Shown piece after piece: positions 3,407 through 60,956 of a DNA stretch of 64,000 nt (positions are counted from its first letter, which is position 1; each line of letters starts with the position of its first letter). Source of the stretch: Glandiceps talaboti (lineage: Eukaryota; Hemichordata; Enteropneusta; Spengelidae); contig NC_135552.1 in assembly GCF_964340395.1 (NCBI RefSeq), positions 13,716,694 to 13,780,693 of the forward strand, given 5' to 3'. Position numbers and translations under genes: made by a program. The notes under the pieces were generated by a model. It was given only the letters and a program-made list of their open reading frames with translations, was not told where the DNA came from and did not search any database.

Positions 3407-3858
3407 GATTGACCTTTGACACCAAGAGGGTTCAATGAACTGAACAATTGACCTTTGACACTGAGACGGTTCAATCACTGAAAGATTGACCTTTGACACT
3501 GAGACTGTTCAATGACTGAAAGATTGACCTTTGACACTGAGACTGTTCAATGACTGAAAGATTGACCTTTGACACTGAGACTGTTGGAAGAACTGAAAGA
3601 TTGACCTTTGACACTGAGACTGTTCAATGACAGAAAGATTGACCTTTGACACTGAGAATGTGCAATGACTGAAAGATTGACCTTTGACACTGAGACTGTT
3701 CAATGACTGAAAGATTGACCTTTGACAGACTGTTGGAAGAACTGAAAGATTGATTGACACTGAGACTGTTCAATGACAGAAAGACTGACCTTTGACACTG
3801 AGACTGTTCAATGACAGAAAGATTGACCTTTGACACTGAGACTGTTCAATGACAGAAA
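3407..3858 (+). repeat. 38-bp minisatellite, 12 units, with nuclear-receptor-like half-sites
   Basis: Twelve units of about 38 bp, each starting gattgacctttgacactg and continuing agactgttcaatgac(t/a)gaaa. Eleven of the twelve contain TGACCTTTGAC, which reads GTCAAAGGTCA on the other strand, a near DR1 arrangement. Units at about 3713 and 3748 carry internal deletions. Confidence 0.9.
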
Positions 3859-4774
3859 CTATACTATATATTCACAAAAAACTGAGGCTTACAACTTGGA
3901 TGTATATGTGTGTCTATCTCTCTGATTGTCTGTCTTTTAAGTAACAGTTATATCACATGAAGATGGTAAAGAAATATGTGCTACTGTAATTATCAATAGT
4001 AAGGGAGCAGGGTCCTTTATCATTTTTCTCTGAATGCTGTAGAACTACACATGGTAATCCCTTTTTGCAAAGCGTAATATCCACAAGGGTTTGAGTGGAA
4101 ACATGAGTATTATTCAGAATAAATGGTTTTATCTCTTGTTTCGGTAAAAGTACAACATACTTCAAAGTTGTAAAAAAAAAATAATTTCAAATTCTCAATT
4201 TCACATTTAAGAAACTGTCTGTTATGGTTTTATTAGAGAAAATATATAAACATTAACCAGTGTATCTTATCTTTTTTTTACTCCATTTTAGCAGTTTTTC
4301 TTCCAAGATTTCAGGTATTTTCTCGGTACCTTATTTTCTCACTTTACCCATACAGTCAGTCATTGCCTGGGAATAGCAACAGGTAGTGTTATCAAAGTTA
4401 TCAGAATTTTGACACAATTGAAAATAAGTATTGGATGTGAGGCTGATTAACAAGTTTGATGGATGCATTTTAAAGCATGTGCAAGTTTTTTTTCTATTAT
4501 TGTAATATTCTTATGAAATAAATTATTATTACTACTTGAAAAATCTGAATGTCTTGCAGTTTAAGGTTGATATACATACATACATCCAATCTACACAGTG
4601 AGAATTATTGAGGGGAAGTTTGAAACTGAAAATTTGTATCTGTTTGGATTTTAGAACCTGCTTGCATTATATGGGTACAAACTACAGTTTATTTCAATTT
4701 TGTATGGGCAGTTGGAAATGGAACTATAGACAAACTAAGGTAGACACAAACGCAAACTATACCCGGTAGTATTG

Positions 4775-38368: not shown

Positions 38369-41300
38369 ATGAGCATCAAAGCTTTCGAGCTAGTACCAGC
38401 CATCGAACGGCTACAGCTGATGGGAGAGAAAGCAAAAACAGCGGTGAGTCCATTTTTCATAGCTATACCGGTAGATTCGTTTGCATTTTCAATTTTGGAG
38501 CTGTGTGTGTTACGATCGAGAAGGTCCGCCCTCCAACGGTGGTCCATGTAACGTTAAAAGTACACAAATGGTCTTGCGAGATTTGGCTATAGATCGAGAA
38601 TATTATCAACATTAATTGCATATCATATGATATAGAAATTAATATGATTATGCAAATAAGACGATAATTATGATAACCCTTCTTTAATAACAATAGTTAG
38701 TCGGAAGTTCCATCAATACAATTGCCATACATAGATACATACATATACACTGTATACATATATATATGTATCTGTGAAATCTCTACAATATTAAATTTGA
38801 CATCTTAAATAAAGTGATATATTTTGTAAAATGTAGTATCCATGGTTACAATTGATACAAAGATGTCATTGGGTTTAGATTATACAAAAGATTTAGAAAC
38901 CCAAAACCTTCCTTTGTCCTAGCTATACTGGTAATGTTACATGCTGATATTCCTGGATTGTCCATTGTTATAATGGGAATATCTACTGGGCCGTTTACCA
39001 TTTACAGCTTACACATATCCGATATCTATGTTGTCAATTGTGTATTAGAATTAACCAATTCACATAACATAATTAGATAAACTGAGAGCTTTCGACTGCA
39101 AGCTGTCTTTGTTGTTGATCGTTCTATTTGTCTTTCTCTTGTGTCTGATCTATTTCTTGGTATTAGGAGATAGTTCCCTTGTCATTTATTTGGTTTCCAT
39201 CGTAGGAATTCAAGCCATAAATACAGTTTTGTAGTTTTATTTATCATTTTTGATAATCTTGTTTTATTTTCACAGATTGAATGCATAGAATGCTGTGGTA
39301 AAAATCTCTATATTGGGTCAAGTGATTGGTGAGATTCAGTTGTTACTGTTTTTTACTATGAATTTAGAACTCCTATAACACAGGGGAATTCTTGCCTGTT
39401 TCCTGTTCTCTCAAGATACATCGTTAGCTGGTTATTCCTCCTAGCCCTCGTATTCTCCCACTTTTCAAAGCTCAGATGATAACGGATTGACAGTTCTTGT
39501 ACATATTGCATTTCTTAGAAGTAAAGTGAAAAATGTTCAATTTCCCAAAACAGTACAGATAAACAAGTAGTCTGCAGAACCAAACTAATGAGGCTACTGA
39601 ACTACTCAGATAATCAAACTGTTCATTTTACCAAACAGCTGAACTGATTTACCCATTAGGTCAACCAAAAAGTTCAGATAGCCAAATTTTTCAAAATACC
39701 CAGATTGTCCAAACTTTTCAAATAAAGATGTGTTTCATAGAAACTAAACATTTCACATAAAAACAAAACATTTGGCATAATTAGAATCTAAACAATCATC
39801 TATCACAGTTACCCTAGATATATGCACACATACACTCTACACCATTTAAAAAAAAATAAACAAAAAAAAAACTGAGGCACATCTTAAAGTAGCCATATGG
39901 ATGACAAAGGTATTTATTTTGGATTTTTAATGTTTAAAACAATTATGTCATATTTTCCTACTTGAAAAAAAATGTGATACAACATAGACAAGGTCCATGT
40001 TTATAATTCAATAAATTGCAAAAATCTATTTTAAAAGATGTGTGAAAATGCTGCTATTGTACGTACTATAACAAACATTTCACACACTAGTTAATTTTTT
40101 TGGCAATTTATTGAGTTACAAACAAGAGCTTGGTATGTTTTGTTTGACATTGATTTTTTTTCAAGTAGAAAGATATGGTAAAGTTGTTTTTATAAATCAA
40201 ATATCCAGACTAACTACCCCTTTGTCATCCGTATGGACATTTTAGTATTAAGTAAAATGTTTTGTTTTTTTTATGTTGTAGTTTCGTCATCCATTTTTTA
40301 CTGGAAGAGAAGACACAAGGAAATGGAAAGGTGACATTAACAAGTAAAAAACAAAGCCATAAATACCTAGCAGTGGTAAGTAGCAATGAATTGGAAGTAA
40401 ATTCTATAATGTGTAAGTATTGTGGAGTCGTAATGGTCAATTTGTTGTTTTATTTGATCTCATACCTTCATTTTTGCTTGTACTATCACTCATATAATAA
40501 CACATTTTTGTCTGGTCATTGTTCCTACATCTGACATATTCACATTACTGATAGCAATCACAACTTGTGTATACGGATACCCAAATCAAAACAATGAACC
40601 AGAGTAAGATGTGTTCTCATTGGTTGAAAAAAGCATTCATACCAATAAACCACAGTAAAATGTCTTCTCATTGGTTAAATAGAGAAAATGTTGATAACCA
40701 TGTCTGCTAATGAAAAAGACCAATATTAAACAAGTTCTGAGCATTCAGAACCAATAAACCATAGTAAGATGTGTTCTCATTGGTTAAATAGAGCAGTAAG
40801 ATGTGTTCTGATTGGTTAAATGGAGCAGTAAGATGTGTGTTCTGATTGGTTAAATAGAGCTGTAAGATGTGTTCTCATTGGTTAAAGAGAGCAATAAGAT
40901 GTGTTCTCATTGGTTAAATAGAGCAGTAAGATGTGTTCTCATTGGTTAAATAGAGCAGTAAGATGTGTTCTCATTGGTTAAATAGAGCAGTAAGATGTGT
41001 TCTCATTGGTTAAATAGAGCAGTAAGATGTGTTCTCATTGGTTAAATAGAGCAGTAAGATGTGTTCTCATTGGTTAAATAGAGCAGTAAGATGTGTTCTC
41101 ATTGGTTAAATAGAGCAGTAAGATGTATTCTCATTGGTTAAATAGAGCAGTAAGATGTGTTCTCATTGGTTAAATAGAGCAGTAAGATGTGTTCTCATTG
41201 GTTAAATGGAGCAGTAAGATGTGTTCTCATTGGTTAAATAGAGCAGTAAGATGTGTTCTCATTGGTTAAACAAACCTATAAACCACAGTAAGATGTCATT

Positions 41301-44300
41301 GGCAAAACAGAGCATCAAACCAGTATTGTTTGAATATTACTGGTAATGAGAATCAGTCAGATGTAGGGATGGCAACCAAGACAAAACATGAACATGTAAC
41401 ACAAATGGCAATTCAGGGTTATAGGTAACGGATAGTTGACCACTACATCAAATTTTAATCAGATAAGGACAAAAACGAACAACACACTAATGTTATAGTA
41501 TTATCTGCTTTGTTGTCCATAGAAAAAACCAATAGTTCAACTGAAGGCAGCGTCAGCGTTAACAAGAATATTAGTTCTATGTGACAATACATTGACATTG
41601 CTTCATATGATTAACTTAGAGGTGAGTCAGATTTCGTAACGGTAAAGAAGAGTTACAAAGAAAACCAGAGGACTTCAATTTGACTCTAAGATATGTTGGT
41701 TTTCTCTGTTTACCCTTACAGAGAGTATCTTACAGACTAACAGATAACCTGAATCTAGACAAAGATTTACAAAGATAACATGTGTATTTCATTTTGAAAC
41801 CACACATTTAAGATTATAACTAGTTCAGCAGAATTCATTTCTTACAATTTCAATGCATTGGTTTATTTTGACCAATGTTTGATTCTTTTGAGCAACCGAC
41901 ATTGCGTATTGATTTTAATGTATTTGAATTTATTTTAATTGACAAATGTCAACAAACTTATTAAAATTGTTTCTTTCCTTTAGCCAATTATGAGTGGAGC
42001 AAAGGTGAAAGGGGTAAGTTTGTGTGTTTGTTATTCATCCTTGAGGAAACAGTAGTAACTTTGTATGCATAACAAAACAAAAAAATTACCAATATCAGTT
42101 TTCCATCATGGCATTTAGAGGCATAGTATACCTGGAAGATATGTCCCTCACTTGACCAATCGGTGATCAGCAATCGTTTACATCATGAATATTAATGAGT
42201 ACAATTTTAGTGCCATGGCCATCATAGCAGCAACAATGAGCTTTCTCATTTATGGAGGTGTTGTACTCCACCACTAGAGGGCACACTTCAATGAGGTACA
42301 TTGTACTGTAGTTCGGGCCAAATCTACGTCAGAATTTAATCACTATCTGTCACCACTTGATATACCACTTGTTTACTATGGTTCTAGTCTGGGTTAGTTT
42401 CTAAACTTTTGATATATCGTCCTCTTTTTATTTTTAGGTGAGTTCATTCTGTGTAAATGAAAACCCAACCACTAGTAATCCATTCAGTATTCAGGTATGT
42501 CAAAGTTGTTAATTGCCATCGTGTTGTCATAGATACAATAGCTGTCTTTATTTTGATCTAAACTCTTCTCTCCTGTGTGTCACCACTCTTGTAATCCAAC
42601 TATTGTACTTACGTTGAGGGCGATGTTGTTCCTTCTTTGTTGTAACCTCTAGATGATATAATGTATATTATCCAGTGTGTTTCTGCTGAATACTGATTTT
42701 TCCTTAAACAAACAAACAAACAAACAAGCAAACAAAACAGACAGACAGACAGACGGACAAACAGACAGACAGACAGACGGACAAACAGACAAAAGTGAAA
42801 ATGGTACAAAATGAAAACAATACAGTTTTACCATATTTTGAAATTTTACATTTTGAAAATACTTTCATTAGGAACTCTCTTAAAATGGTTGGGGAATATA
42901 TCTCAGAGTTGATCATCACAGTGTTCTGAGACCACTCCCATAAAATCATGAAATAAAAACAAAAATCTCCAAAATGAATTAATGGTATATTCAGTGACCC
43001 CACAACATGACAGATGAAGCCATTTCATGAAGTGGCTCCTGACACCCCTTCCCCCTTTTCAAGTGCATTTTGACAAATAGTAAATGATATCATTAAAAAA
43101 TACGCTCATTCACCCTAAAGTAAACTTGTCAAATTTGAAATCTCATCTTTGACTTTTCCCATTTGAAACTTTTTTTTGTTAAAAAATATGTATACTTTAT
43201 GCCATAGTTTATGTTTTATCATTCATATGCTTATAATGTATGTACATGTGTTATTCAAACAGGTGTGTGTAGCTACCAAGAAGAAATGTCTATATCTTTA
43301 TACCGTGACTGAAGATAAAATGAATTTCATCCGAGAAATCACAACTACAGATTTTCCTGTCACAATGGTCAGTCTTGACTTTTATTTTTGATTTACTTGA
43401 ATTAATATTTATGTCATTTTTTTTTCAAGTGAGGCAAGTGTGAAATGCATGTCATTATTTTGATAAAATGTTTCTGAAAAATAATTTATCATTGAAGTAT
43501 GAAATTAAAGTTTCGGTAATAACAATGAGCAGGACAACTGTCCTATCTCCAGTAAACATTTTGGACTTGTGGGAACTTTATTGCAAAGTTTGTGTTCTAT
43601 TGTTGCATATACACATTTTCTGACTTCTTGGAACAATGTTTGTCCATAGCAAGGACCTGTTAAAATGAATGAGGAACAAATTTTCAACTCCATGTATATT
43701 GGTTGTCACATATAAATGAAATGTTATTCCCCAATATTTTTCTTCGTTCAGCCAAGGAAAATACATTTGTAATGTACCTTTGTGACTATGAGTCGCTAGA
43801 CTAGTAGTGACAACCCTTAGGTCACAAGTATTTTCTGGTGGAATAAAGAAAAATATTAGAGAATAACATGATTATAGCAGTGCCAGTAATATGAAAGAAA
43901 AAAGGAGAGAGTAATGACAATTTTGAATGTTTTGACTCATATTTTGAACACAGCAGAACCAGTGATGTAGACATGTGTTGTCATGACATGGTGTTCCTGT
44001 TTAAAGTGGTGTACACAAGTTTAACTGATTTTAGCATAAATACAGAGAACATGTCTCAGACTCCAAAAAGAAATGTTGCCGTTGATCATTATAATGTTGT
44101 GATTCTGTGTTCTTTTCCTATACACATATCAGGACATGGATGCCTACTTTATCTGTGTAGCCCAATCAATACAATATTTCATGATCAACTTTGACACCAA
44201 TGAATCAACTGATCTATTTCCGTATGAAGCTGATCAAACTAATCCCATCGTCAAAAGAATTGGCCAGGTAAACTTACATATTTATCAATAACTTTGTTGA

Positions 44301-47300
44301 ATTTTTCCCTTTATTTTGATATCTTGTGCAACATTACTTATGTTATTTAGTCATTACCAGAAATCAGTAGGCTGGTTAATACCCGAAAGACAAAAGATTT
44401 ATATGGTTTGGCCACTAGGAGTGCTGTTCACTTTTTCGACTGCATCTTTTCCCGGTATTTCATGTCAAAAGTCGATAACATTCTTGGCCAGTTCAGTTAT
44501 GTTCAATATTCTCAAATTTTGATTAATTTTAGGACTCTAGAAATTATTTTACAAATATCATGTTCAGGACTTCAGTGACTGCCAAGTGGTTGGTATCCAT
44601 GATGAAAATTTGGTGTTGGTAATTCTATTGCATTTCAAGAGTTTATATCTGGTACAATAGTAAGCTAAATTCTGATTGGTACATAGATAGAATATTGTAA
44701 GATTAAAGATATTGCAGCCAATCACAGTACTTGTTCTATCATAGTGTAAGGTACTGTTACCATCAGCTAGCAGGCTTTTTGATGGCAGTGCCAAGTTTCA
44801 CCTTAAATAACCAGAATTTAACAATCTTTTCAAGATGATTTCTTCACTATTTTTGCTTGTCCTTGTCAGGGAGAATTCTTACTAAATGGTCCCAATGCAT
44901 TAGGAATGTTTGTCACATCGGAAGGAGTGTCACAACGACCACCATTACAGTGGTCTAGTAGCGTCATGGCAACAGGGTATGTCTATCCTTACGTCTGTGC
45001 ACTGGACGATGAATTTATCACCGTACACAGGTAAGTCTATTATGGGATATACTGGTACTCCCAAATAATGTAATCTGGCTTAGAATGTAGTTGTGTGAAC
45101 TGATGAATTACAAAAAAAAATTAACTGAAAATTGTCAATAAATATCAATAAAAGTTGGACCTAGATAATACTTGAAAATAATGTATCATAGAAATCTGTA
45201 ATAAAACAATTATTATAAATATTCATAATATTGAATTTATATGTTTTGTGAAAGAATATTGCCATAACTGGCAAAATTAATTTATTTTTGTTATTACTGG
45301 TTATCATTTTTATGGAAACATCCACCTGTTGACATTATTGTTTGCACTAACTTATCAAGAAATCTAAATTTGTAATAAATCTTTATTGAAATATCTCTCT
45401 GCGGACATTATTGTTTGCCCTTTGACCTCCAACCCTTCAACCTATGACTGAATCTTTCAACCTTTGACCTCTGACCTAAGCTCTGTATCATGATCAAATT
45501 TGGTTATTCATCTTTTCAGTATTCTAGATCAGCAGCAGAAACAGACCATTCCATTTCAAGGAGGTAAACTAATGAATAACTTTGAGGGACGAGTGTACGT
45601 AGCATCAAATAAAGAAGTGTATGCTCTGATACCAGTACCGGTTGACAAACAGGTACGTCATTGTCAAGTTCAACACCTGTCAAATCTTTCTTAATGTATG
45701 TGTAACTGTCTCAGTATTTATCGAATTACATGATAGCTTGAATTCTAATATCAAAAAGGGTATACTCATATTTTTAGTGAGTGATTGTATATTGGTTGGG
45801 GGGTGGGGGGTGGGGTGGGGTGTGTCTCCATTGAGATTAGCCTATAGATCTATAGTATCACTGTTACCATATTATTGATATCCATGTTACTGTTTCAGAC
45901 ACCAAATGTTTGATACTCATATTTCTGTTTTCAGATACCCAATCTTTGATACTGTTTTCAGACACCAAATCTTTGATACTTGTGTTACTGTTTTCAGACA
46001 CCCAATCTTTCATACTGGTGTTACACTTGTTACTGTTTTCAGATACCCAAGCTTTGATACTCTTACTGTTTTCAGACACCCAATCTTTTGATACTCATGT
46101 TACTGTTTTCAGATACCCAATCTTTGTTACTGTTTTCAGACTCCCAATCTTTTGATACTCGTGTTACTGTTTTCAGACACCCAATCTTTTGATACTCATG
46201 TTACTGTTTTCAGACACCCAATCTTTGATACCTGCATTTCTATTTTCAGATACAAGCTCTGTTGAATGACAAGCGAGTAGAGGAAGCTCTAACATTGGCA
46301 AAGAATGCAAAGAGAGTTGGTATCAATAGAGAGAACTTTCAAAAGGTTGGTTTCCTAGGACTTACAGTTTCTCAAATTATTTCTGTATTTCATGTACTAA
46401 AAACAACAGTTCACAAAACTTTGGAAGATGTTTTCAAAATTAAAGTGTCATTTGGTGGATTTGTGAATCATTTTGGATATTTTTAACAAGAATAATTGTA
46501 ATTGTAATAAAGTAACGTATAACGTACGATGAAATCTGATTGAACTTACACAAAATTCTTTTCAATCACAATCCTGCTGTGTTGAGCTATAAAAATACTC
46601 TTATATCTAGTAAGTAAAACAACAATCTCAACTTGCCTAATAATCAGCTTTGATCATCAGATGTGTATATCGTCTGCAGTCTTCTGGCAAACATTCCCTG
46701 TTTTAGCTGTAAGTGCACAATGTATTGACACAGAATTGCCAACTTCAACATCAAATTGATGACTTTTTTTAGTGATATTAGTTTTCTGCGCTGTCTTTTT
46801 TTTCAGTTGTACTACCGTATTCAACAGCAAGCTGGTTTCATTGAGTTATCACAGTTTCATTTCAAAGAAGCAGTTGATTTGTTTAAAGCTGGTAGACTTG
46901 ATGTCAGAGAGGCATGTACAGTTATATTACTTCTATGTTGGGTAGTTATGTTTTAATGGTCCACTTTGGAATAGGATTGTAAAATTTTGGTGTGAGTACA
47001 GTTCTTTGGCCGAGCTATAGAAAAAGTTGGCCCAGCACAAAAGAATGATCCCATGTATGATGTAATCCTTACAGCTAAAATGATGTCGGCTTAGTGTTTC
47101 ACTCATGCAACATGACATTTATTACACACCATTAGACAACTTGTAATGCAAAAGAAACACATAGGTGCCGTACACAGTGAGGATGTAGATGTAGTCAAGT
47201 TGAAATGTTGATTATCAGTTAGAAAATGAACAATTGCAGCCATTATTAATCATCAAGTCCATGTGTAATGTGTTCATTAGAAGCCTCTTTTTACTGCACT

Positions 47301-50300
47301 GTGAAAGAATAGCAATGTTTATTAGTGTTCACTGTGATTAGGCAAGGGATCCTGCTGTGTTTATTGTGTCTCAGTTATTGTCAGTCTAGAGTCGAAATAT
47401 GTCTATCTTTGTGTCAAAAACATGATGTCCCATGAATGAAACACTAAGCCTACATCATTTTAGCTATAGCTGTATACAGGTAACAGTAAATCTCTGACAC
47501 CAGATTACACAATGAAGTATGCTTTATGAAACACTTCATAAGAAACATCAACACAGCAAAATTGAGATGAAACATAATGATTCCAATAAGGTCTCACACA
47601 GTGGCTAACACATATCCATCACAATCATTTGAAGTTTTAGGACGTAAACGTGCTGCCTTCATAGCACACATTTGGTATTACAACAATATAATATAAAGTT
47701 GAGGGCGCACTCTCTTATTTTTTTTGTGTGTGTCTTATTCCTTTACAGCTGATAAACCTATTCCCACTGTTACTGCCTTCCAATTCCAACTTCACCAGAT
47801 CAGTACCTCTACTACATGAGTTTGCTGACATTAATCAAATTGTCAAGTATAACAAGGAGAGGCTAGCTCAGTGCAAAGAATTCTTGATTTCGTACTTACA
47901 ACAAATAAGGGGCACTAGATTTGCTGTTGGCTACAAAGAGGTATGTTACCATGGAAACTGGCTTTTCTTGAATGCAGTTGTAACCCATTGGGTATATGTA
48001 TAGTTTAATTGGAATGGTTTGGAAGTTGAATTTTATATTGTTTGGGGGAGGGGGGGGGGGGGCAGATGAGGAAGGGGTGATTGCATACTTAGATTTTATG
48101 ATATATTTAGAAATATTTTCATGAATTTCATTAGCAACAGACTCTTCAACTTACAGTTTTGATTTCAATACGTTTTTTGTATGACATTGAGTATTGAGGA
48201 TTGTTGAATACCAGGTTAGGTTGTGAAAACAGCTGAAATGCAGACTTTCCATTTATTACATATTTTAGATTTATTTGAGATGCATTTTAGTTATTTCGGA
48301 CTATAATTGGCACTCAAACTTAACAATTATATCATGTACTGAATCATTGTTGTGATCCAGTGTGACAAGTATTGTTTTCAGCACCTTCACTTTCAATGGT
48401 TGCTAGGCAACCAAATAACAATCTCATCTCTATTTCCACTTCATCTTTTCCTACCATCATTTCACACTCATGGTTGCCAGGCAACCATATAACTGAATCT
48501 CATCCGTCTCTCCACTTCATCTTTACATACCATCACTTCTCACCCATGGTTGCCAGGCAACCATATAATTGAATTTCATCTGTATCCCCACCATATTCTT
48601 TGGTACCAGGAGGTAGACACAGCTCTGTTAAAGCTGTACTCTGAAATCAATGCACCAGAACTATCTGACCTGATAGCATCTGAGAATGGATGTATGTTTG
48701 AAGATTGCGTAGGAACACTACAGAAACATCAACGCTACTATGCACTGGGCTCACTCTATAAATACCATGGCGATAGCGATAAAGCTCTTCAGCTGTGGAC
48801 GGGGTAAGAAACTCAAAAGTATCAGTAGTTTGACCCATGGCACAATTCACAGCAAAATGTGGTTCAAGCGTCTAGTCCAATTGCTGCACTATGCACAAAA
48901 TATAAGGTCCATTGATTAAAAAGGAGAACTTTTGGGTTTTTATGGCTTGATTTGTATGAAATATCTGTTATACATTACTCATTCATTATATATCATGAAA
49001 GAATGATATTGTCTGGAGAAAAAATGTACGTAATGGTACTCACTTTGTAGTTGTATATCCTTTGTGTACATATGCACTAGGGCTATCGGTGACTGAGTGC
49101 TTAAACCACTCTGCCTCTTACCACTGCAGTCGAGGTTCGAACCCACTCAGGGTTTGATTAAATTTACCAGGCTGTGAGTAAAAGAGTGTCGTTCAGTTTT
49201 ACTCTACTGAACAACGCCCGTTTTCCCCAGGTTCTCCGGTTAACTCCAATGAGGGATGGCCTTCACTGGACTCCTTTGGAGACAAGTGTTTATATACTTA
49301 AAGAACTATCCAGTATAAGTGAAGATTATGTAAATTATATACACTCAAAAACCATGGATAAATAATGCAACTCTCCAAAGGATAACTTGTTGTTTATTTG
49401 TTTGTTTGTTTGTTTGTTTGTTTGTTTCTATTCTAGGATTGTTGATGGTCAGTACAAGGATCCATCATTTCCAGGTGTAGATTTCATTGTAGACTTTCTA
49501 GCTAAGTAAGTCACTCAATCTTTTGTCGTTTAGAAAGAAGCCATATGATTGGCTTGAAGTGGGGGTTTGGGAGAAGCCATGTCATTGGCTGAAACTACTG
49601 GATGTTTGTGTTTTAATTTTGGGATTTGTAAGAAGTCATATCATTGGCTGAAGTAATCCAATGTTTTGTATATTGAGTTGGGATCTAAACTAATCAATCA
49701 ATCAATCGATCGATCAATCAATCAAGTAATCGATCAACCGATCGATCAAATTTCTATAGTGCCTATTTCCAGAGCAATGTTCTGTTCAGTAGCACTGAAT
49801 GGCTAAAGCACACCATATGCTTTGGTGAACAAATAAGTCTTCAGTTTTAGGCTTGAGGCTTGGTGAATGTCTAGTGGCAAAGAGTTCCATAGTTTTGGAG
49901 CAATGAGCGACCTCCATAGGTGATTTGTCTGTAACTTGTAAACAGATTCTTGTTTGTAGAATGTAGTGTCTGACTCACAATTGTTTTTTATATTAACCCT
50001 CCATTATAATGGGTATCTGGTAGGATTCTATGAGTGTCGTGTGAAGGATGTCAGCAAGTATTGTATACTCCTCATTGGAGTAAAGAAATCACTAATATAG
50101 CAGGTTATACCATTATAGATCTTTACGCCATGCACAATCCAAGTTATTGTCTTTGAACAGAAAATGTGGATTACATACCCTAGTCATTCTACATCACAAC
50201 AATCTGTGTTTTCATCACTAGTTCTGTGGTACTTGAAATATTGGTCAAAACATTCTAAATCGCCATTATTTTTCCCCAATATTTCATATTTTACGCTTGG

Positions 50301-53300
50301 ATTTTCATAAATTATGATTGAGAATGTATAAATTATATTACACCCTAATATTTTTCTTCATTTTCTTTGAAAAATACTCAAGATTTGGAGGGTTTGTGTC
50401 CCTACTCATCTAGCAACTTGTAGTAACAAGACCCCTTAGGCCACTTGTAATTTTCCTTGGCTGAACGAAGAAAAACTTCTGATTGGCCGAGTACTGATAC
50501 TAATTGTCCTGTTCTCTGCACTTTTACACAAACTCTATACTAGTTTATTGGAATGAGCAGACTACAGAAAAAAATTTGTTTTGTTTTTAGATTAAGTGAC
50601 CATGAACTAATATGGAGGTATGTTGATTGGGTAATGCAGAAAGATGAATTATCAGGTGTTAAAGTAAGTCAGACTACATGATTATTCTTTCCAAATTTGA
50701 CATTAAAAAAACCAGACATGTAATCTTTCTTGTGGCTTCTTTAATTTTAACACCCACCCTGCAGTGTTTGTGTATACTAGCTACAACTAGAGTATTTTTT
50801 TTTTCGATCAGACAATATATTCACTGAAAATTGTTAAAATACCAATAATTAGACATTGGATATGTAAATTAAGGGGGGGGGGGGTTGATTTTTATCAAGA
50901 GACAATACAGCAACAGATTGAAATTGTGATCACATTGCAGTGCTGAGTCAATGTAATGTATAAACAATTTGATGACATTTAGTGTATGTAAACTGACATG
51001 ATATCAAGTGTACTAACAACAGTCTGTAAGGTACACTATGACAGGGTGGGCTACTACCTTATTTTAGCATACATATATGTGCCGACCTTTGGGGTGCGTT
51101 TTCTAGCCCATTGGTCTAAAATGGGGTCTGTTTTTTTTTTTGAGCTGAAGAGTCTAAAACGGGGTCCATTTTGCATTATTTGTTATTTTGCTTGGTCTAA
51201 AATGTGGTCCATTGTCATGTACCAAATCATAATTGCCATTAATTGCCCCAAAATGTTGCTTCCCAAGGAAAATGTATTTAGGTCTGAACTTTCATCTTTT
51301 AAAAAACCTGTAATGGTCTAAAATGTGGTATTGAGTTTTGGTCAAAGTGGGTCTTAAATGGGGCCTGGTGTTTCCAGCACTGGCCACACATCCCTACCAG
51401 AGCTGGCCACTGGTACTGCCTCCAGAATCCATCCATCAACAAAAAATGGTATACTAGGATAGTTTTATGCAGCAGTATTTTCACTTAAGGGTAAAAGCCT
51501 ATGAACTCAATTTGTGCAGCAACAAATATTTATGAGTATAAACACAGGTAATATGATGAAGTATTTGTATTTCTAACCACATTCATTTATACATTGCAGA
51601 TTTTCACAGAGAGACCACCTGGTGAGTCACCAAGTGAAAGACTTCGTTCTGATGATATCATTGATTATTTACATAAGTATCCTGGGGCTGTTATCCGTTA
51701 TTTAGAATATTTAGTCTTTATGAAAAAACTTGAGGTGAGAATTTTCATTTTCAGTATACTGTACAGTGTTAAAGTTATTTAGCTAGAACCTCGTCATGTG
51801 GGAATTTTACTCTCACATTTCTCCTACTACGCCTGGCATTTTGCTATAATGGTTGTATAGTCAAACCTAAAATTACTGATTACAGTTTCCTCACAGTGAT
51901 TATAAAATATGGTAATCATGTTTACATCGTGCAACTCATTCCTCCGAGTTGGTTCTGATCACCGAGTTGGTTCTGCCGTTGATGTCATCTCGCAGCGGAT
52001 GAATTAAAAACCCAATAACAATTTGCATCTGTTTTCCAGCCATAGCTCCATTCAAGGAATAGGTCGTAGCAAAAAGCCAGGCGTAGTAGAAGAAAAGTAA
52101 GAGCAAAATCCACACATACCTAAATTCTAGGTTATATATAAAGTTATAGACATTTGAAAGTAAGGTCAACAGTTCTGGCTTTATCAGCAGAATAAAAAAA
52201 AATGGATTTTGATATTTATATTTTGGATACATTACGGGTTGTTTGCTGAATGTAGAATGTTTGCCGAGTTTCATGGGAATACAGTCATTATGAAATAGTG
52301 GGATTACACGCAAAGGTGGTATTTGTTGTGAGTACGTCCTCACAGTTCATGTTTACTAATTATTTTGTTTTTATTACTCTTTATTTGTGCAGAAAGAAAA
52401 GTATCACACTCACTTAGCAGTACTATATTTAGATTCAGTCTTACAACTCAGGAAGAATGCAGATACGCCAAAGGAGAGACTGGACCTGGCACGGTCCAAA
52501 CTCCGTCACATGTTACAAACATCATCTATTTATAGAATTCAGCTCATTCTGGGAAAGGTCAAAGAAACTGACATGTATGCTGAATGTGCAATACTCTATG
52601 GAAAGGTATGTCGTGAAGGTAACAGATATGACTGTGGCATGCTAAGTATCAATAAGACAAGACAGATGCAAACTAAGCTGTTATCATATAGCATGTATAC
52701 TGGGTTACATAAATTGGTGATAGCGCTGCCTTGGTGATGCAGATGTAGTTGGCCTGTAATCGATATTTTGCAAACACTAGAAGTTCCCCAACACATGCAA
52801 CATGTACCGTGGATGTCTAGACCAATAAAACTCTGCATGGGTCTTACTATACTCTGAACCTTTCTACCCTGAGTGTAATCATATCAGCATCCAGTGTAAT
52901 GTCAGCATGTCACAGTAAAATTGTCAAAAGTGATCTGGCCAGAGTAATATGAGCATGATCGTCATAGCGATGGGGTCAATAGGTTGTGACTTAAAGTGTC
53001 ACTGTTTGTAAGTGAGGCTGCTGTTGTCAGAAGTTTGTGGTGTATAAAAACATAATTTTACAATACACTTTTAAACACGTTTAGCGAGTCTGCATGGACA
53101 CAATGTGAATGAGGTATGAAAGCTGAGACTGGATTTTATTGGTCCGGAAAAATTATGTCATGACATAGGGCATCTACAGAACATGTATGTCAAGATAGTG
53201 ATGGTCTTCTCCAAGTCCAGAGTCATGGCTGAAATCCAAGAACTCTAAGGCATGATTGCACAATGTCGTACAAGCTCAATAAATGAACTTTGTTCATGTA

Positions 53301-56300
53301 GGACAAACCCTTCCCACTCCCCCTAAACGGAAATTCACAAGTGTGATATTGACATGTTTATATATGATGTAAACCGTGATAAAAATTATAGAAGTCACAC
53401 CACTACGATCAATGCAATGTAAAAAACATGATGGTAAAGACATTAAAATATTACCGGAAACCCAGCACTGTATATCTCATATTAGAAGTAAATTTGAATC
53501 AACTTATCAACATCTTCAGTAGTAAATACAGAACCTGTTAAAAATAAACTAATTTTATCATTGAAGGCATGAAAGTTTTTGAAATTTGGTAAGAAGTGCG
53601 AAAATGAAGTTCAGCAATCGCATTGACACTAGACTCTAGACATTCTTGAAGTTGTGATAGTGGGTTGGTTGACCTATGACCTTTTGGTTGACCTTTGACA
53701 TGTTTATTACCTTTGACCTCTTCAGTTGGAAGAGCATGACAAAGCTTTAAGGATATTGGTGTACAAGTTGAAAGACTATGGAGCTGCTGAGAATTACTGC
53801 GATGTCAATTCTGTTGGGAAAGACAAAAACTACAGGAGAAGACTTTATCAGATTTTACTCAGTGTTTACCTAGATCCAATGGAAGGGTAAGTATTGTCAT
53901 TGTTTACTTAGATCCAATGGAAGGGTAAGTGTTGTTATTGTTTACCTAGATCCAATGGAAGGGTAAGTATTGTTATTGTTTACTTAGATCCAGTGGAAGG
54001 GTAAGTAATGTTGTTGTTTACTTAGATCCAATGGAGGATAAGTAATGTTGTTGTTTACCTAGATCCAATGGAAGGGTGAGTATTGTTATTGTTTACTTAG
54101 ATCCAATGGAAGGGTAAGTATTGTCATTGTTTACCTAGATCCAATGGAAGGGTAAGTGTTGTTATTGTTTACTTAGATCCAATGGAAGGGTAAGTATTGT
54201 TATTGTTTACTTAGATCCAGTGGAAGGGTAAGTAATGTTGTTGTTTACTTAGATCCAATGGAAGGGTAAGTATTGTCATTGTTTACCTAGATCCAATGGA
54301 AGGGTAAGTATTGTTATTGTTTACTTAGATCCAATGGAAGGGTAAGTATTGTTATTGTTTACTTAGATCCAATGGAAGGGTAAGTATTGTCATTGTTTAC
54401 TTAGATCCAGTGGAAGGGTAAGTATTGTCATTGTTTACTTAGATCCAGTGGAAGGGTAAGTATTGTCATTGTTTACTTAGATCCAGTGGAAGGGTAAGTA
54501 TTGTCATTGTTTACTTAGATCCAATGGAAGGGTAAGTATTGTTATTGTTTACTTAGATCCAATGGAAGGGTAAGTATTGTTATTGTTTACTTAGATCCAG
54601 TGGAAGGGTAAGTAATGTTGTTGTTTACTTAGATCCAATGGAAGGGTAAGTATTGTCATTGTTTACCTAGATCCAATGGAAGGGTAAGTATTGTTATTGT
54701 TTACTTAGATCCAATGGAAGGGTAAGTATTGTTATTGTTTACTTAGATCCAGTGGAAGGGTAAGTAATGTTGTTGTTTACTTAGATCCAGTGGAGGATAA
54801 GTAATGTTGTTGTTTACCTAGATCCAGTGGAAGGGTAAGTATTGTCTGGCACCACCAGAAATATAGGAGATTATGTACATCATGCTGGAGAAGTTGTGGG
54901 TATAGGGATGTGGGGATGGGGTGGGGTGGGATGGGAGGGGGGATTGTATTTCAGAGCAACGTGCATAAGCAACTTCAACTTAAAGGGGGAACATCACTGC
55001 ACCACTCCAGGAAATAAAGGTACATGTAGTTTTGTAAACTCTGGGTTCTGGAGAGTTATTTCATGATTTAACATCACATAAATTGTGCAAGATTGCCAAG
55101 AAACTCAAAATTGCAACTCTATTTCACCTTCATAGCTCTCATACTGGTCTACCGTAACATTGCCTCGTTGACTTAGCAGACATACATATGTACTAGTTGA
55201 ACAATGAATATTCATGATTACTGAAATGAAGATAATAAGCACTTAGGAGTGATGAATATTCACTTTTCAGCTAATATGTATGTGTGCTAAGTCCCATGAT
55301 GCAACATTGTCTTCATAAGACTCAAAACCTTCCTACTGTTCACAAGAAAAAAAAAGTAACTGAATTCCCATACCAAAGACTACCATCACATTTAGCTTCA
55401 TATTCCGTTTTTTCACATTGTATTTTTCAGACCAAAAGATGCATTAGTTGGTCCAGCAATATCACTACTCAATAGCAATTCATCAGAATTCGATATTATT
55501 AGGGTAAGTGTACATATAGTACCCGTGTCAACACAACTAATCGGTAAATAGTGTGAATAGCGCCCTCAGTGTTACAGAAAGGTGTATTCATCTCAGTCCA
55601 ATATTTATGTATTTTGATTTTTTTTTTTTTAACTTTTTGCCGTTCAGATTGATGTCTTTTTTGCCAAAAGTTACTTTGTCATAATTATATTAAAAATTTA
55701 CAACTTGCATAATATTTGAACCTCAATCATTATAAATAATTGATTTTAAGAAAATGAAATTACAACAGCAAGTAGTTTTATATATCTGGATTTGTCACAG
55801 TTGTAGTAATTCAGTTATTGATCATTGTCAGATCTCATAGGTGACATTCTTTCATGAACTACAACACATTCTCAGATTTTCTATCCAAGAGTTGTACAGG
55901 GATGTATGAATACAAAACACAGGGGGGTGACTTTGATTTTCAAAATACATCTGCAAGTGAAAATGTCACCATTTTGGAGAATGTTCTGTTGTATCTACAC
56001 TTAACTTCCACTCACCATACTATGACTATAAATTACCAAAAGCCAAATTTTCTGTAGAAAAATTAATGTCTGATGATTTCCAACAACATCAATGGAAAGA
56101 GAATGTCTTAGGATATGTCAGCTCCTTTCAAAAGATCCAATGAATTTCTGACGTTGGTTGGATTATCAATCAGTTCATACATTGACAGAATTTTGATTGG
56201 TTAGACTTATCTATACTTTCTTAATCCAAAATTTTCTTGCCAACCTTTTGGGAATATGTTTGATGTATTTATCTTTTCTTGCACCCGATTACTATCTTTT

Positions 56301-59045
56301 TTTCTGTGGAAGTGCATTTTAATTCAGTTTCTTTTTTTTGGAGTGCTAATTATTCTAGTATAATGTTAATGTTTAGAATTGTTGTTGCATGCCTTCTGTG
56401 ACATTACAAGTCCTTTATGGCATTGTGAGAACAGTTGATTGCACAGCAGGGATTTCCTCAACATTTTTTATGCATATAAAAAATTATGTTCATAAGTTGT
56501 ATTGTAATACCAGGTTTGAGTTTAGTTCATTGCAAGTGATGGCTAAGTGTGGTTCAGTAAGTAGAATACTGCGAGTACCTCATGTATATGCAGCAAGATT
56601 TATGACCCAAAAACTTGTAAAGTGTGTCCCGATAAGTATCAAAATCACAGAGTGTTATCAGATCAAATGTCTGCTGTCTGTCTCACGGTTTTATTTATGT
56701 TTCTATGATGTTTTTTTTTTCCACATCAGGTTCTTCAAATTTTACCGGACAACTGGTCAATAGGACTTCTGCAGCACTTTCTTTCCAGAGCACTCCGTAC
56801 AAACATGCACACTTGTAGGGCTACAAAGATTGAGAGAATGTTAGCGAGGGGAGAAAATCTACAACTGAAAGCTCAGACGATACGAGAAACCAGACATCCA
56901 GTAGCAATGACAGATGACAGGTAAAATATTTCATGTCATTTTTGTTTGTGCAACGACACTGATCATTTTTTTTGTACCTTGAATTGTGTACTGTTGGATA
57001 TCTGCTATTACAAGTAGTAGCCATTTGTAATATTGTCGAAATCAGTAAAACTATGAAATTGAATATTTTCACAAGTTGTGTCATAAATAGTTGTTATGCC
57101 ATTCTATTCATCCCTGGTGACCAGAAGTTGAACAGAACAGTACATTATTGAGCATGATTTTATAGTGCCCTGTCTTCTGATGTTCGCAGTGTTTATCTTT
57201 AGCCATATCACAGTGTCTTTCATGGGGTTTGTCACTACATTTGACTCTGGCGGTATTACAGTCTCTTTCCCAGGTTATGTTGCAATGTATCTGTTTCTGT
57301 CTGTAACTTTATGATTATGTTTTAGTCTCTGAGTGTAACACAGTGCCTGTCTCAGGTTATGTCACACCGTCTCCAGCTGTATCACAGTTTCTTTCTCAGG
57401 CTTTATAACAGTATCTGTCTGTATAGCTGCATTAGTTTGTAAGATACAACTTTCGTGCCATGCTATCAGTAGGCTGAACAACATGGCATATATGACAGTC
57501 TATAGCAACATGTTTATATCACAGTGTCTTTCTTGCTTTACGTTACACTGACGGTCTCTGGCAGTATCAGTTCCTTATCTAGGGGATTGTCACAGTATTT
57601 ATCTCCTGCTGTGTCACAGACTGTGTCTTTATCACTCTCACTCAACTCTGAGTAGTCTCAGTCCTAGACTGTAAGATGTGTCGCTCCGCCCTCACTGGCC
57701 GATGACCGATGTATGAGGGCGCCCTATCACAGCATACCTTACAGACTACTAGTATCTCAGTCCTAGCATAGTCCAACCATGTCTGTCAGTGCATCCGCAA
57801 CTATTCAGCCATCATTCTCATCCCAGGTGAATACAGGTTAAACAGAACAGTACACTCTGACCATGTGTTTATAGTGACCTGTCTTGTAGTATTTATCGTT
57901 AGCCACATCACAGTGTCTTTCGTGGGGTTTGTCACTACATCTGTCTCTGGCTGTAGGATGAACAACATGATGTACATTACAGTCTATATAAACTACATGT
58001 GTTTATCACTGCCTTTCGTGTGTTATGTCACACTGTCCTTGGCTGTATCAGTTTCTGGAGGATTGTCATAGTATTTAATCACTAAATCACTACGGATTAG
58101 GATTAAAATTTACCGGTAGGTGTGAAAACCGGTTTGTTGGCAGAACTATAGAAAAATTTAGTTCAGAACAAAAGCATTATGCCATATAATCCTTATTAAG
58201 ATAACACTAATATGATGACCTGGGATTGAAACATGGCCCTTTAAATACTGCAGTTACTACTCTATTCTGTGAATGTTTTATTTGTACCTATATGTTATAG
58301 ACCAAGTTTGGCCAGATTGTTGAATTTGATCTTGTGCCCAGTCCTTGTCAAGACAGAGTCACTGATCTGGGACTGATACGTGCCTGTGTGTCGGGAGGGG
58401 GGGGGGGCACCTGCTCCCCTTATTTTAGTGTACGCATATGTACCACCCTTTGGGGTGTGTTTTCTAGCCCTTTGGTCTAAAATGGGGTCTGATTTTTTCA
58501 AGCTGAAGAATCTAAAATGGAGTCCACTTTGCATTATTTTAAATTTTGCTTTATCTAAAATGTGGTCAATTGTCCTTTACCAAATCATAACTGCCACTAA
58601 TTGCCCCAAAATATTGCCTCATAAGGAAACTGTCTATCAACTGTTCAACTGTTCAAGGTCAAACTGTCTGGCCGGAGAAATGGGATGATGTCGTTATCAT
58701 ATTAGCAAATAAAATGCCATTAGAAACATTTATACTTTATAGCCAGGGACCCATACTCATTAAATAATTTGATATTATTTTCTATATTATGTTCTGAGGA
58801 ACATGAAAACATGAATTCCAGGCTAAAACATGTCCAGGCATATACTACTATTGACCTGTCAAAATTCAAGTCTAGGTCGACACTGTCTTTACCAAAGCTG
58901 GGGTAAAATATGTCTTTTGTTGTGGTGAAACGAAATACACACTGATCATGACAAACCAAGGCTTTTTGAAAGTTTTAGTGTGTAATTGTATGAATACATA
59001 TACATTTTGTCAACTTATGTCTTACTTTCTTTCTTTCTTTCTGTC

Positions 59046-59098
<53 letters not shown>

Positions 59099-60956
59099 GT
59101 CTGTCTGTTGGTTCACCCACCCTATAATGGTCTGTCACTATGTATGTGTTACTGGTAGTCTGACTGATGGTCTTCATGACTCTGTCCATCCATTTGTCTG
59201 TTTGTCTGAATTGTCTTATTTAAGCATAGACAATGGAGTAGAAATCCCCTCACTGTCTATTCACATGTCATTTTCCACCAATATTTTATTCTTAATTCAT
59301 GTGTTTATATCTCAGATCAGGTTGTATCTCTACATGTATCTCAATCTGTGTTTAGGTACCTCCTTCTCCCCCCCCCCCCCCAGCCCATTTTCTCTCTTGA
59401 ATTCTCGTACAACACCAAATGCATATATATCCACTAAATCAAATGTTACATTTTGTTTATCAGTTTGGTGCACTTCATCCAATGGTACTTAGAATCAACT
59501 CCGCCCTACCAACACAGTAAAGTAGAACAATTCCTGTCAAAACCAAGATGGCCAAACCCTGATAAGCATCCGACAAATTCAGGTTGGCCGTATATGCACC
59601 TCTTTTAGCCATTCCTAACATGGCAACAAGTGATTTTAACACCTTCAAAATTTGACAATCGGAAACGAGTTCAATCTAATGTACCCTGACCTTTTATCTT
59701 TGATATGAATGGAATTTTGGAATGATAGGTTTATTGGATGGGAAAATTGTCAGGTGTGTCTCAGGAGACTCGAAAAAGGAAGCAAATTCTGTGAAATTTA
59801 GTGTTAGCTTGAGATTGTAAAAGTAGCTGAAATATTGCTTTAAATCATGATAAGTGACTTATCCAAATAGTTTCTCCATTTTGTGTCTGTACACGTCTGA
59901 CATAGTTTATCATAGTTTACAATCAGTAGTCAGTCAGCCAATATCAACGAGATATAATCAAACTGATAACACGCTAGGACTTTGTAGTATAGAAAAATGA
60001 GGTGGTTATAAAAAAAAAAACCCACACCATGATAAAACCCAAATTTGTTGATACAAACCACGCATGAACCATTCTACGTCTATGTTGAGTTTGTCCCTCT
60101 GGTGAGAATGCTCCCAAGTTGACTTTCAGCTGAAGATTTTCTCTTTAGCTTAAGTTAGGTCAGAGGTCATGACATGAGCAAACACACAATGGCTGCACCT
60201 GTTTCCATAACAACAACTTTTCAGGCAGCCATTTTGGAGTCAAGTGTGTCAGAGTTCCAGTATGGACTTTGAAAAGTTCCATGACCCCTATGTATCATCA
60301 ACTTTATATTTTCAATGATGTATTAAAGTAAATATATCTAGTTCTAGAGTTTCGAGAGATGATTGAATAATTTCTCAAGAATACCTATCAAATACATTAG
60401 TAGTAAGTCAGATACAAAAAATTGTTCATGTGTATCAAGATTATATTGACAGTGAAATGTGAGGCTCTGACAAAATATATGCAATTCGAAATATTATTGT
60501 TAGATGCAGTACATTAGGTTTGTGTACAAAAGTGTAAAATATTTACAGGAAACCCTTGATCCATAATCTCTTATGTAATTAATTTATTACATTTAAAAAA
60601 CAATAAACAATTGTGTAATAATGTTTGATAATCTCTTGATAATTAGACCTTTTAAAATTACAGAATTATACTCGATGTTTTTTTTAAACTTAGAAAGGAA
60701 TTTCACAGAGAAACAAATCCATGAAAACAATATTTCAAATTTACAAGTTGAAATATTTTTTCTGCAATATTGCTGTCATTTAATATTTTATTTATCTTTT
60801 TCTTCATGCAGGATATGCGAGGTTTGTCGTCGTCCATTCAACGATACTTCCTTCTCAAGGTACCCGAACGGCGTAATCACACACACGCAATGTGCCAGGA
60901 ATAAAGTTGTGTGTCCAATAACTGGAAAGGTATTCAGTACAAAGAAGAAATCATAG
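38369..60956 (+). CDS. TGFBRAP1: TGFBRAP1 / Vps3, CORVET endosomal tether subunit (22 exons, 862 aa)
   Basis: Rab5-side subunit of CORVET, which tethers early endosomes; human TGFBRAP1 has 860 aa. Exons: 38369-38443, 39276-39328, 40282-40375, 41523-41621, 41984-42013, 42438-42494, 43263-43367, 44133-44267, 44870-45030, 45520-45652, 46250-46345, 46807-46911, 47749-47940, 48610-48803, 49437-49505, 50591-50663, 51600-51734, 52393-52605, 53726-53886, 55431-55503, 56730-56920, 60812-60956. All phases agree. It starts MSIKAFELV; the N-terminal CNH (citron homology) domain, about 25-300, contains IECIECCG, LLEE and YVCALDDEFITVHS. Clathrin-type repeats and the Vps39-1 region follow (RIQQQAGFIEL, EVDTALLKLY, EKYHTHLAVLYL). 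The C-terminal Vps39-2/zinc region has CEVCRRPF, RYPNGVITHTQC and CPITGK (about 817-852). Oddities: exon 12 ends in a GC donor (GAG|GCATGT), and repeats copy the exon-11 acceptor and exon-19 donor. Introns are 0.3-3.9 kb. Confidence 0.97.
40763..41270 (+). repeat. 32-bp minisatellite, 16 units, each with an inverted CCAAT box
   Basis: The unit is agtaagatgtgttctcattg followed by gttaaatagagc. Sixteen units are nearly identical; two degenerate ones lie just upstream (about 40603 and 40650). Each holds ATTGGTT (AACCAAT on the other strand). It lies in TGFBRAP1 intron 3. Confidence 0.95.
42271..42284 (+). promoter_or_regulatory. Candidate CTCF core site
   Basis: CCACTAGAGGGCAC fits the CTCF core consensus (CCASYAGRKGGCRS). 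It lies in TGFBRAP1 intron 5. Motif evidence only. Confidence 0.35.
42711..42793 (+). repeat. (AAAC)n and (GACA)n microsatellite
   Basis: AAAC units are followed by GACA units interrupted by ggacaaac, in TGFBRAP1 intron 6. Confidence 0.92.
43722..43868. mobile_element. Palindromic repeat family P2, copy 1 (about 147 bp)
   Basis: The left arm is gttattccccaatatttttc and the right arm gaaaaatattagagaataac, near-complements. Inner parts (ttcagccaaggaaaatac) are also partly complementary. A related inverted copy is at 50342-50476. It lies in TGFBRAP1 intron 7. Confidence 0.65.
45880..46249 (+). repeat. Minisatellite of about 35 bp copying the exon-11 splice acceptor
   Basis: About 10 units of (a/g)tgttactgttttcaga(c/t)acccaatctttgatac, 31-45 bp each. 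Each contains a good 3' splice site (ctgttttcag|a). The array ends at the real acceptor, ttctattttcag|atac, of TGFBRAP1 exon 11 (46250). The real acceptor is a diverged last unit. Confidence 0.93.
47073..47465. repeat. Inverted-repeat element with about 34-bp arms
   Basis: The left arm is agctaaaatgatgtcggctt... and the right arm ...aagcctacatcattttagct, complementary over about 34 bp with two mismatches. The span is about 390 bp in TGFBRAP1 intron 12. It could be a MITE; the outer ends are not certain. Confidence 0.6.
48390..48609 (+). repeat. 75-bp repeat, 3 units, each with a palindromic RFX X-box, ending at exon 14
   Basis: X-box cores are at 48398-48412 (GGTTGCTAGGCAACC), 48470-48488 and 48546-48564 (both ATGGTTGCCAGGCAACCAT). 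Between them lies a cacttcatctttt(c/a)c(t/a)accatca-type spacer. The array runs into the acceptor ggtaccag of TGFBRAP1 exon 14 (48610). Confidence 0.85.
49081..49335 (+). mobile_element. tRNA-derived SINE, copy 2 (plus orientation)
   Basis: The A-box region is tgactgagtgcttaa, and the B box at 49134-49144 is exactly GGTTCGAACCC, as in tRNAs. The body gagggatggccttcactgga matches the copy at 15780-16060. A short frame across both copies gives similar peptides only because the element is shared. It lies in TGFBRAP1 intron 14, just upstream of a (TTTG)n run. Confidence 0.85.
49391..49427 (+). repeat. (TTTG)n next to the exon-15 acceptor
   Basis: About nine TTTG units end 9 bp before the acceptor tttctattctag, contributing to its pyrimidine-rich tract. 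Confidence 0.93.
50342..50476. mobile_element. Palindromic repeat family P2, copy 2
   Basis: The left end is taatatttttcttca; the right end ttttccttggctgaacgaag is the complement of the inner arm of the copy at 43722-43868. It lies in TGFBRAP1 intron 15. Confidence 0.55.
51019..51315 (+). repeat. Dispersed repeat family D1, copy 1, beginning with a half palindromic element
   Basis: 51019-51050 holds the left half of the 70-100-bp palindromic family (cagtctgtaaggtac...). From about 51055 the sequence (ttggggtgcgttttctagcc, ggtctaaaatggggtctg, aaatcataattgccattaat) matches 58410-58640 in the same orientation. Both copies lie in TGFBRAP1 introns. Confidence 0.7.
53246..53640 (+). mobile_element. 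TA-flanked MITE, copy 3 (right end lost)
   Basis: The left end TA-aggcatgattgcacaatgtc and the interior match the copies at 4775 and 16895. The right inverted repeat is missing after gttcagcaatcgcattgac. It lies in TGFBRAP1 intron 18. Confidence 0.7.
53862..54846 (+). repeat. 38-bp minisatellite, about 26 units, copying the exon-19 splice donor
   Basis: The unit is tgtttac(t/c)tagatcca(a/g) followed by tggaagggtaagtattgttat. The first unit contains the end of TGFBRAP1 exon 19 (53886) and its donor GAAGG|GTAAGT. The next 25 repeat both. About 24 units keep GTAAGT or GTGAGT; two read GGATAAGT. Block patterns recur (compare 54181 and 54541), showing higher-order amplification. Confidence 0.97.
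57108..57955 (+). repeat. Intronic segmental duplication with degenerate repeats
   Basis: 57108-57245 and 57826-57955 are direct copies (aacagaacagtaca(t/c)t, cacagtgtctttc(a/g)tggggt, ttgtcactacat). Between them are degenerate atcacagtgtctttct-type units and a palindromic MITE. It lies in TGFBRAP1 intron 21. Confidence 0.65.
57665..57748. mobile_element. Palindromic MITE-like element, copy 5
   Basis: The left arm is tagactgtaagatgtgtcgc and the right arm cataccttacagacta; the core contains gagggcgccc. TCTCAGTCC occurs directly left of it and again shortly right, fitting a 9-bp duplication with extra bases. It lies in TGFBRAP1 intron 21. Confidence 0.7.
58410..58640 (+). repeat. Dispersed repeat family D1, copy 2
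   Basis: It shares ttggggtgtgttttctagcc, ggtctaaaatggggtctgat and aaatcataactgccactaat with the copy at 51019-51315, same orientation, roughly 75-80% alike by eye. It lies in TGFBRAP1 intron 21. Confidence 0.7.
59041..59109 (+). repeat. (CTGT)n tetranucleotide repeat
   Basis: About 16 CTGT units in TGFBRAP1 intron 21. Confidence 0.95.

Follow-up and report, generated by a model that had tools for sequence, protein, structure and literature searches.

The host gene and its reading frame

The window, that is the whole stretch of 64,000 nucleotides analysed here (C5:13716694-13780693 in an assembly of 590,416,875 bp and 47 contigs), contains a gene of the TGFBRAP1/Vps39 type, whose 22 exons can be joined by frame and splice sites into a coding sequence of 2589 nt with a single, terminal stop codon (Table 1). 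The predicted protein unites a CNH domain (PF00780), Vps39 domain 1 (PF10366) and the C-terminal Vps39 zinc finger (PF10367) in one chain, all of them above the Pfam cut-off, and the Clathrin match (PF00637) is marginal (30.2 vs. a cut-off of 29.6 bits). We presume that the gene is TGFBRAP1 and not VPS39. Furthermore, an alignment to yeast Vps39 (7zu0_E, E 1.2e-5) covers the junction of exons 19 and 20, where it contains three gaps of 1-3 residues. The coding sequence, the Pfam domains and the yeast alignment all agree with the gene family, exon 19 and donor given in a preliminary description of this DNA. In this frame the skipping of exon 20 results in a stop after residue 737, and the skipping of exon 11 keeps the frame.

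Two further observations concern the same gene. The donor of exon 12 at 46911/46912 is of the GC type (GAG/GCATGT), which makes the following intron a GC-AG intron, and intron 21 contains a long imperfect duplication, recognized by eye, at window positions 57090-57950. The GC content amounts to 35.6% in the window and 35.9% in 158 kb; that of Branchiostoma is about 41%.

Table 1. Features of the host gene (window positions) and exon-edge arrays of the genome sample (L numbers, positions within their own stretches).
Feature	Position	Strand	Description
TGFBRAP1/Vps39-type gene, 22 exons, coding span	38369..60956	+	862 aa; CNH, Vps39_1, Clathrin repeat, zf-Vps39_C
Acceptor array	45875..46253	+	10 intronic copies of T-rich tract and CAG, 27-45 nt apart, then authentic acceptor 46249/46250
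Exon 11	46250..46345	+	96 nt, phase 0; downstream of acceptor array; from frame and splice sites
Exon 19	53726..53886	+	161 nt; entry phase 0, exit phase 2; from frame, splice sites, Pfam and yeast Vps39 alignment
Donor array	53863..54848	+	26 units, 24 of 38 nt and 2 of 37 nt; unit 1 holds authentic donor 53886/53887
Exon 20	55431..55503	+	73 nt; partner of authentic donor 53886/53887; from frame and splice sites
L014 donor array	3650-3793	minus	frame open over all 240 nt examined, ending at the first of 6 donors; exon end inside the unit
L028 acceptor array	2130-3072		copies of acceptor and beginning of exon, upstream of an exon with a MAM domain; PF00629 match over the splice junction, E 8.5e-23
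L017 possible donor array	4408-4519		signal-peptide-like first exon (our own interpretation), its end apparently coinciding with the first donor

A donor array at exon 19 and an acceptor array at exon 11

The edge of exon 19 is part of a minisatellite, as the preliminary description had noticed with its estimate of about 26 copies. TRF reports a period of 38, 25.9 copies and 93% matches for 53863-54845, and dissection at the anchor TGTTTAC(C/T)TAGATCC, which delimits the units, gives 26 units of 12 types. A full unit comprises the last 24 nt of exon 19 and the first 14 nt of the intron, i.e. the tandem units run across the exon-intron boundary; unit 1 is the end of the exon and the remaining 25 units are all on the intron side. 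The donor reads GTAAGT in 23 units and GTGAGT in one, so the GT is intact in 24 of 26, the proportion of consensus donors that had been proposed before; it is lost in units 5 and 25, both of 37 nt. With a PWM built from the gene's other donors (each of the 21 donors left out in turn, range 3.0-12.5), a score of 11.0 is obtained for unit 1 and 22 further units and 10.1 for one, leaving two without GT. Among 1290 intronic GTs outside the array, only one reaches 10 or more with this matrix.

When exon 19 is ended at any of the 25 later units (two of them without GT), the protein stops after residue 727 instead of 862; the earlier statement that skipping of the first donor leads to an immediate in-frame stop is hence correct for the entire array. 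The donor of unit 1 is the one that gives the family protein, because the unbroken frame, the Pfam domains and the yeast Vps39 alignment depend on it. More precisely, the unbroken frame requires the first donor at exon 19 together with the last acceptor at exon 11, and the resulting protein fits Pfam and yeast Vps39.

The unit pattern has 13 matches in the whole assembly, all of them inside the exon 19 array, and the array is the only one among the window's retained minisatellites with a GTAAGT-containing unit. Unit types recur in blocks (IDGCI at units 9-13 and again at units 19-23), and an exact repeat of 213 nt occurs at an offset of 380. We found no sign of selection on the array donors: with the last unit left out, 22 of 25 units have an unchanged donor 9-mer, and for other 9-mers the number is 9 to 23.

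The array just before exon 11 is the mirror image of the donor array and was missed in the preliminary description. Here overlapping TRF rows contain 11 CAG sites, namely the authentic acceptor and 10 upstream copies, which score 5.0-11.3 vs. 7.2 for the authentic site. All 10 upstream acceptors lead to a premature stop, after residues 318-364. As a structure across an exon boundary it is weaker than the donor array, since the TRF array includes only 4 coding letters of the exon and the match is mostly on the intron side. Nevertheless, the copies carry splice signals in both arrays, with 24 donors in 26 units and a CAG in 10 of 10 intronic acceptor copies. Both sites also stand out in a scan in which 44 nt around each of 42 splice sites were aligned to at most 2.5 kb of their own intron with 200 shuffles: only the exon 19 donor (z 28.9) and the exon 11 acceptor (z 6.1) have prominent intronic copies that span the site, and the next site-spanning match has z 2.3. 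The exon 15 acceptor takes the third row of the scan with z 4.5, but its match does not extend across the site. Branch points do not mark the acceptor copies, as yUnAy precedes the CAG in 10 of 11 stretches but its 14 matches in 379 nt are about what composition predicts according to a hand calculation.

Two other arrays of the gene region were considered and dismissed. The array at 48396-48591 stops 18 nt short of exon 14, whose acceptor, however, is not copied in its intron (z 0.6), and the array at 40763-41270 does not look exon-derived by eye, related pieces being present elsewhere in the window. Rfam and tRNA scans gave no matches.

Exon-edge arrays elsewhere in the genome

The genome was sampled with 20 stretches of 10 kb each (200 kb, including 1962 N), in which 24 minisatellite arrays of 21 families occupy 11.5% of the bases. 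Two of these are supported exon-edge arrays (L014 and L028) and a third is a possible one (L017). In a coding-potential scan the exon at L014 scores 21.6 and that at L028 15.3; they exceed the 99th (17.8) and the 98th percentile (14.5) of random sites, respectively, whereas the score of L017 was not significant. For comparison, the exon 11 acceptor scores 10.5, above the 95th percentile (8.7), and exon 19's own donor 9.4, just below it (9.7). The scan is weak, because the exon 19 donor falls under the 95th percentile and L017 fails.

Five donor arrays (L029-L033) were found in the first 5.05 Mb of C1, among the matches listed. Two of them, L032 and L033, are of the donor type: each comes after an open stretch that has an acceptor in front of it and that ends within the unit; L030 and L031 are undecided as exon-edge arrays. 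No Pfam family above the cut-off was obtained for the exons of L014, L032 and L033. L029, L019, L021 and L024 were rejected as exon-edge arrays, as no exon is seen at their edge.

Some side observations belong to the same repeat landscape. At L013 (1-5634, C2:2000001 on) an array of satellite size contains at least 149 copies of a 38-mer including ACAGTAAGTACTGTCAG and is cut by the edge of the stretch. Within the window, an array of 4.2 copies of 60 bp at 1399-1652 starts approximately where another predicted gene has its stop codon (..TVQT*), which may represent a coding end copied into the 3' UTR. Moreover, two exon sets on the minus strand at 13035-34814, which we take to be farnesyl-diphosphate-synthase-like, suggest a tandem gene pair; one of the exons has a sub-threshold polyprenyl_synt match.

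Chance location or seeding by splice sites

How such arrays came to lie at exon edges is a question of origin that can be separated from their anatomy. The chances are about even that location alone is responsible, i.e. that in a minisatellite-rich genome an array touching an exon persists only by growing into the intron, so that occasional exon-edge arrays are expected even if splice sites play no part in the birth of repeats. The high density of minisatellites in the 200-kb sample is in line with this. It also agrees with a placement test: when the gene's four minisatellites with a TRF score above 200 are positioned at random, allowing at most 30 or 40 covered coding bases, at least two of the four touch an exon edge with P 0.046-0.084, for a required coding overlap of at least 1 or 4 nt (the choices under which the exon 11 array is included). 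Two exon-edge arrays in one gene are unusual, but they are no proof of bias, and the gene taken alone is compatible with chance location.

The hexamer content of the units points in both directions. GTAAGT, counted on either strand, is narrowly the most over-represented hexamer in the family units of the 200-kb sample (6 of 21 vs. 0.82 expected), which speaks against pure chance with an uncorrected P of 2e-4. However, this is not significant after correction for about 2080 hexamers, and it must be mentioned that donors had been noticed in the array list before the count was made. With the window included, GTAAGT is found in 8 of 26 arrays vs. 1.02 expected. Chance is again favored by the related motifs, as AGGTAA occurs in 2 of 21 family units with 1.06 expected and TTTCAG in none with 1.38 expected; GGTAAG (2 of 21, 0.49 expected) is not clearly enriched either. 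Before families were merged, GCTATA (7 of 24, 1.05 expected) was about as frequent as GTAAGT (7 of 24, 1.00 expected), and L029, L021, L019 and L024, the four arrays without a visible exon at the edge, all contain GTAAGT.

A similar ambiguity is seen genome-wide. The pattern of three AGGTAAGT with 15-45-nt gaps has 1379 + 1267 = 2646 matches and its reversed control 554 + 369 = 923, which argues against chance, but matches pile up in big arrays and the counts are inflated by them. Over the initial 5.05 Mb of C1, 5 arrays show the donor pattern and 2 the reversed one, among the matches listed; the 12 arrays of the reversed control in 34.8 Mb, likewise among those listed, include 6 or 7 GGAT-like microsatellites.

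Altogether, the evidence that donors seed minisatellites above chance is suggestive, not decisive. We consider it doubtful, though worth stating, that minisatellites arise preferentially at splice donors and that arrays of a gene's own exon edges occur in hundreds to thousands of genes; equally tentative is the associated idea that a large minisatellite class derives, as a side effect, from splice-site sequence or from transcription at exon edges. This reading is weakened by the nearly equal enrichment of GCTATA and by the lack of it for AGGTAA. If it were true, the spliceosome would routinely have to pick one of many identical sites, and the seeding question is the more interesting one. If exon-edge arrays are as common as the small sample suggests, they would supply natural splicing variation on a large scale and possibly raw material for new introns. 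The abundance of such arrays may also be what is novel, and no genome-wide survey of exon-edge arrays was found among CC-licensed PMC papers.

Birth of the donor array and choice of the donor

We interpret the exon 19 array as a mirage, i.e. a boundary minisatellite that has grown into the intron together with the donor and whose unit next to the exon still serves as the functional splice site, and assign a probability of about 0.85 to this reading. A tandem duplication at the exon-intron boundary would have given birth to the array and carried the splice donor along, and unequal exchange would then have let it expand into the intron, which tolerates such growth. Unequal exchange fits because unit types recur in blocks and because of the 213-nt exact repeat. 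Exon-edge arrays probably change their length between generations.

U1 could bind any of the 24 near-identical donors. Most likely, exon definition leads the spliceosome to match the exon 19 acceptor to the nearest downstream donor, and the exon-side unit is the probable choice because it gives the shortest exon (161 nt) and the intact frame. In test transcripts, identical strong donors can favor the intron-proximal one, which would oppose the use of the first donor; a literature search on the rules for competing donors recovered nothing usable. A slip to a later unit would produce an mRNA with an immediate TAA that is probably cleared by nonsense-mediated decay. In the mirror case of exon 11, the last, exon-side acceptor would be used. 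Judged by the precedents discussed below, use of the exon-edge site with a small leakage to the next copy may be expected, so that the array would be mostly neutral and its small splicing cost would consist of this leakage or, if it behaves as in ABCA7, of exon 20 skipping. Two dozen equally strong donors in a row offer a natural test of spliceosome choice among identical sites, and RNA and long-read sequencing could be applied to the host animal.

Other readings of the arrays fare much worse. It is improbable that they act as a regulated poison device, in which the cell would deliberately choose later donors or upstream acceptors and adjust the protein amount via stops and mRNA decay. All 25 later unit ends and all 10 upstream acceptors do give premature stops, but these are expected anyway, since intronic letters read as codons soon contain a stop; moreover, the donor letters are no more conserved than their neighbors, and amphioxus mirages are reported, in the part of that source available, without disturbance of splicing (PMC3087553). 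Still less credible is an assembly artefact that multiplied a short repeat. The 213-nt exact repeat could mislead short reads on copy number, but 12 unit types in a non-trivial order, unique flanks, similar arrays elsewhere in the genome and an assembly of 47 contigs (four contigs examined are 29-36 Mb each) stand against it.

Finally, we regard as the least probable reading that the units are spliced in as 13-nt micro-exons, a proposal of the preliminary description that we rejected on the weak acceptor scores. A stretch of 13 nt is indeed framed by TAG and GT in 24 of 26 units, but the TAG scores only -3.3 to 2.6 over the 26 units vs. 2.8 to 12.2 with a median of 8.0 for the authentic acceptors of the gene, the level of ordinary cryptic AGs (90th percentile of 930, 3.3). 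Furthermore, the gap from donor to next TAG is 25 nt, less than the usual intron size, and insertion of one such exon (tested with copy 3) causes a frameshift and a stop after residue 745. The acceptor-like string tttac(t/c)tag atccaatggaagg on which the proposal was built is present as described, but its likeness to an acceptor needs no explanation because it is coding sequence in unit 1 (VYLDPMEG).

Comparison with known systems

An exon-edge array of splice sites is a known kind of structure, with the amphioxus mirages and the human ABCA7 VNTR as examples (PMC3087553, PMC3902484, PMC5954066; compared here by the portions available). Mirages are described in amphioxus for Adh3, the globins BflGb6 and BflGb9, TnC and PGBD5, with units of 10-72 bp in Adh3, 60 and 108 bp in PGBD5 and 150-160 bp in the globins, and globin RT-PCR and Adh3 data point to regular splicing, as far as these sources could be consulted (PMC3087553, PMC3902484). 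They resemble the arrays of the present gene in that minisatellite-like boundary copies lie at 5' or 3' sites and the authentic exon is retained (available parts of PMC3087553 and PMC3902484). In contrast, the exon 19 array has 26 units, whereas the portions at hand give 6 and 3 for two BflGb6 haplotypes; furthermore, donor and acceptor arrays occur here in one gene. The mirage cases found in the accessible literature have cephalochordate hosts. Canestro 2002 is reportedly the amphioxus Adh paper.

The human VNTR in ABCA7 intron 18 (25 bp, 23.7 copies in hg19) is similar in another respect, as its unit 1 starts with the exon 18 donor, later units offer further donors and use of the next one breaks the frame (PMC5954066, in part); in the exon 19 array, too, the authentic donor lies in unit 1 and donors of equal strength follow in later units. 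In the sections available, use of the next-unit donor in ABCA7 leads to retention of one unit and a frameshift in 2+/-1%, independent of VNTR length, exon 19 skipping rises with this length, and polymorphism and lower expression were measured (PMC5954066). A role of the present array as a source of regulatory variation, as suggested in the preliminary description, appears plausible because ABCA7 provides such a case, according to the same sections (PMC5954066). Unlike our array, in which 24 of 38 nt of the unit are exon, the ABCA7 unit starts at the GT without exon letters (PMC5954066, same portions).

The minisatellite of human IFI6 (6-16; Turri 1995) likewise consists of units that supply several donors, but its downstream units are used and result in isoforms, whereas every later donor of the exon 19 array leads to a stop (PMC4526556, in the part available). 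Finally, intron gain by tandem duplication (the Rogers model, with ATP2A1 and potato RdRp as cases) shares the feature that a duplication supplies splice signals (PMC4974935, in part). Unlike in that model, the gene with the exon 19 array can be explained without a new intron.
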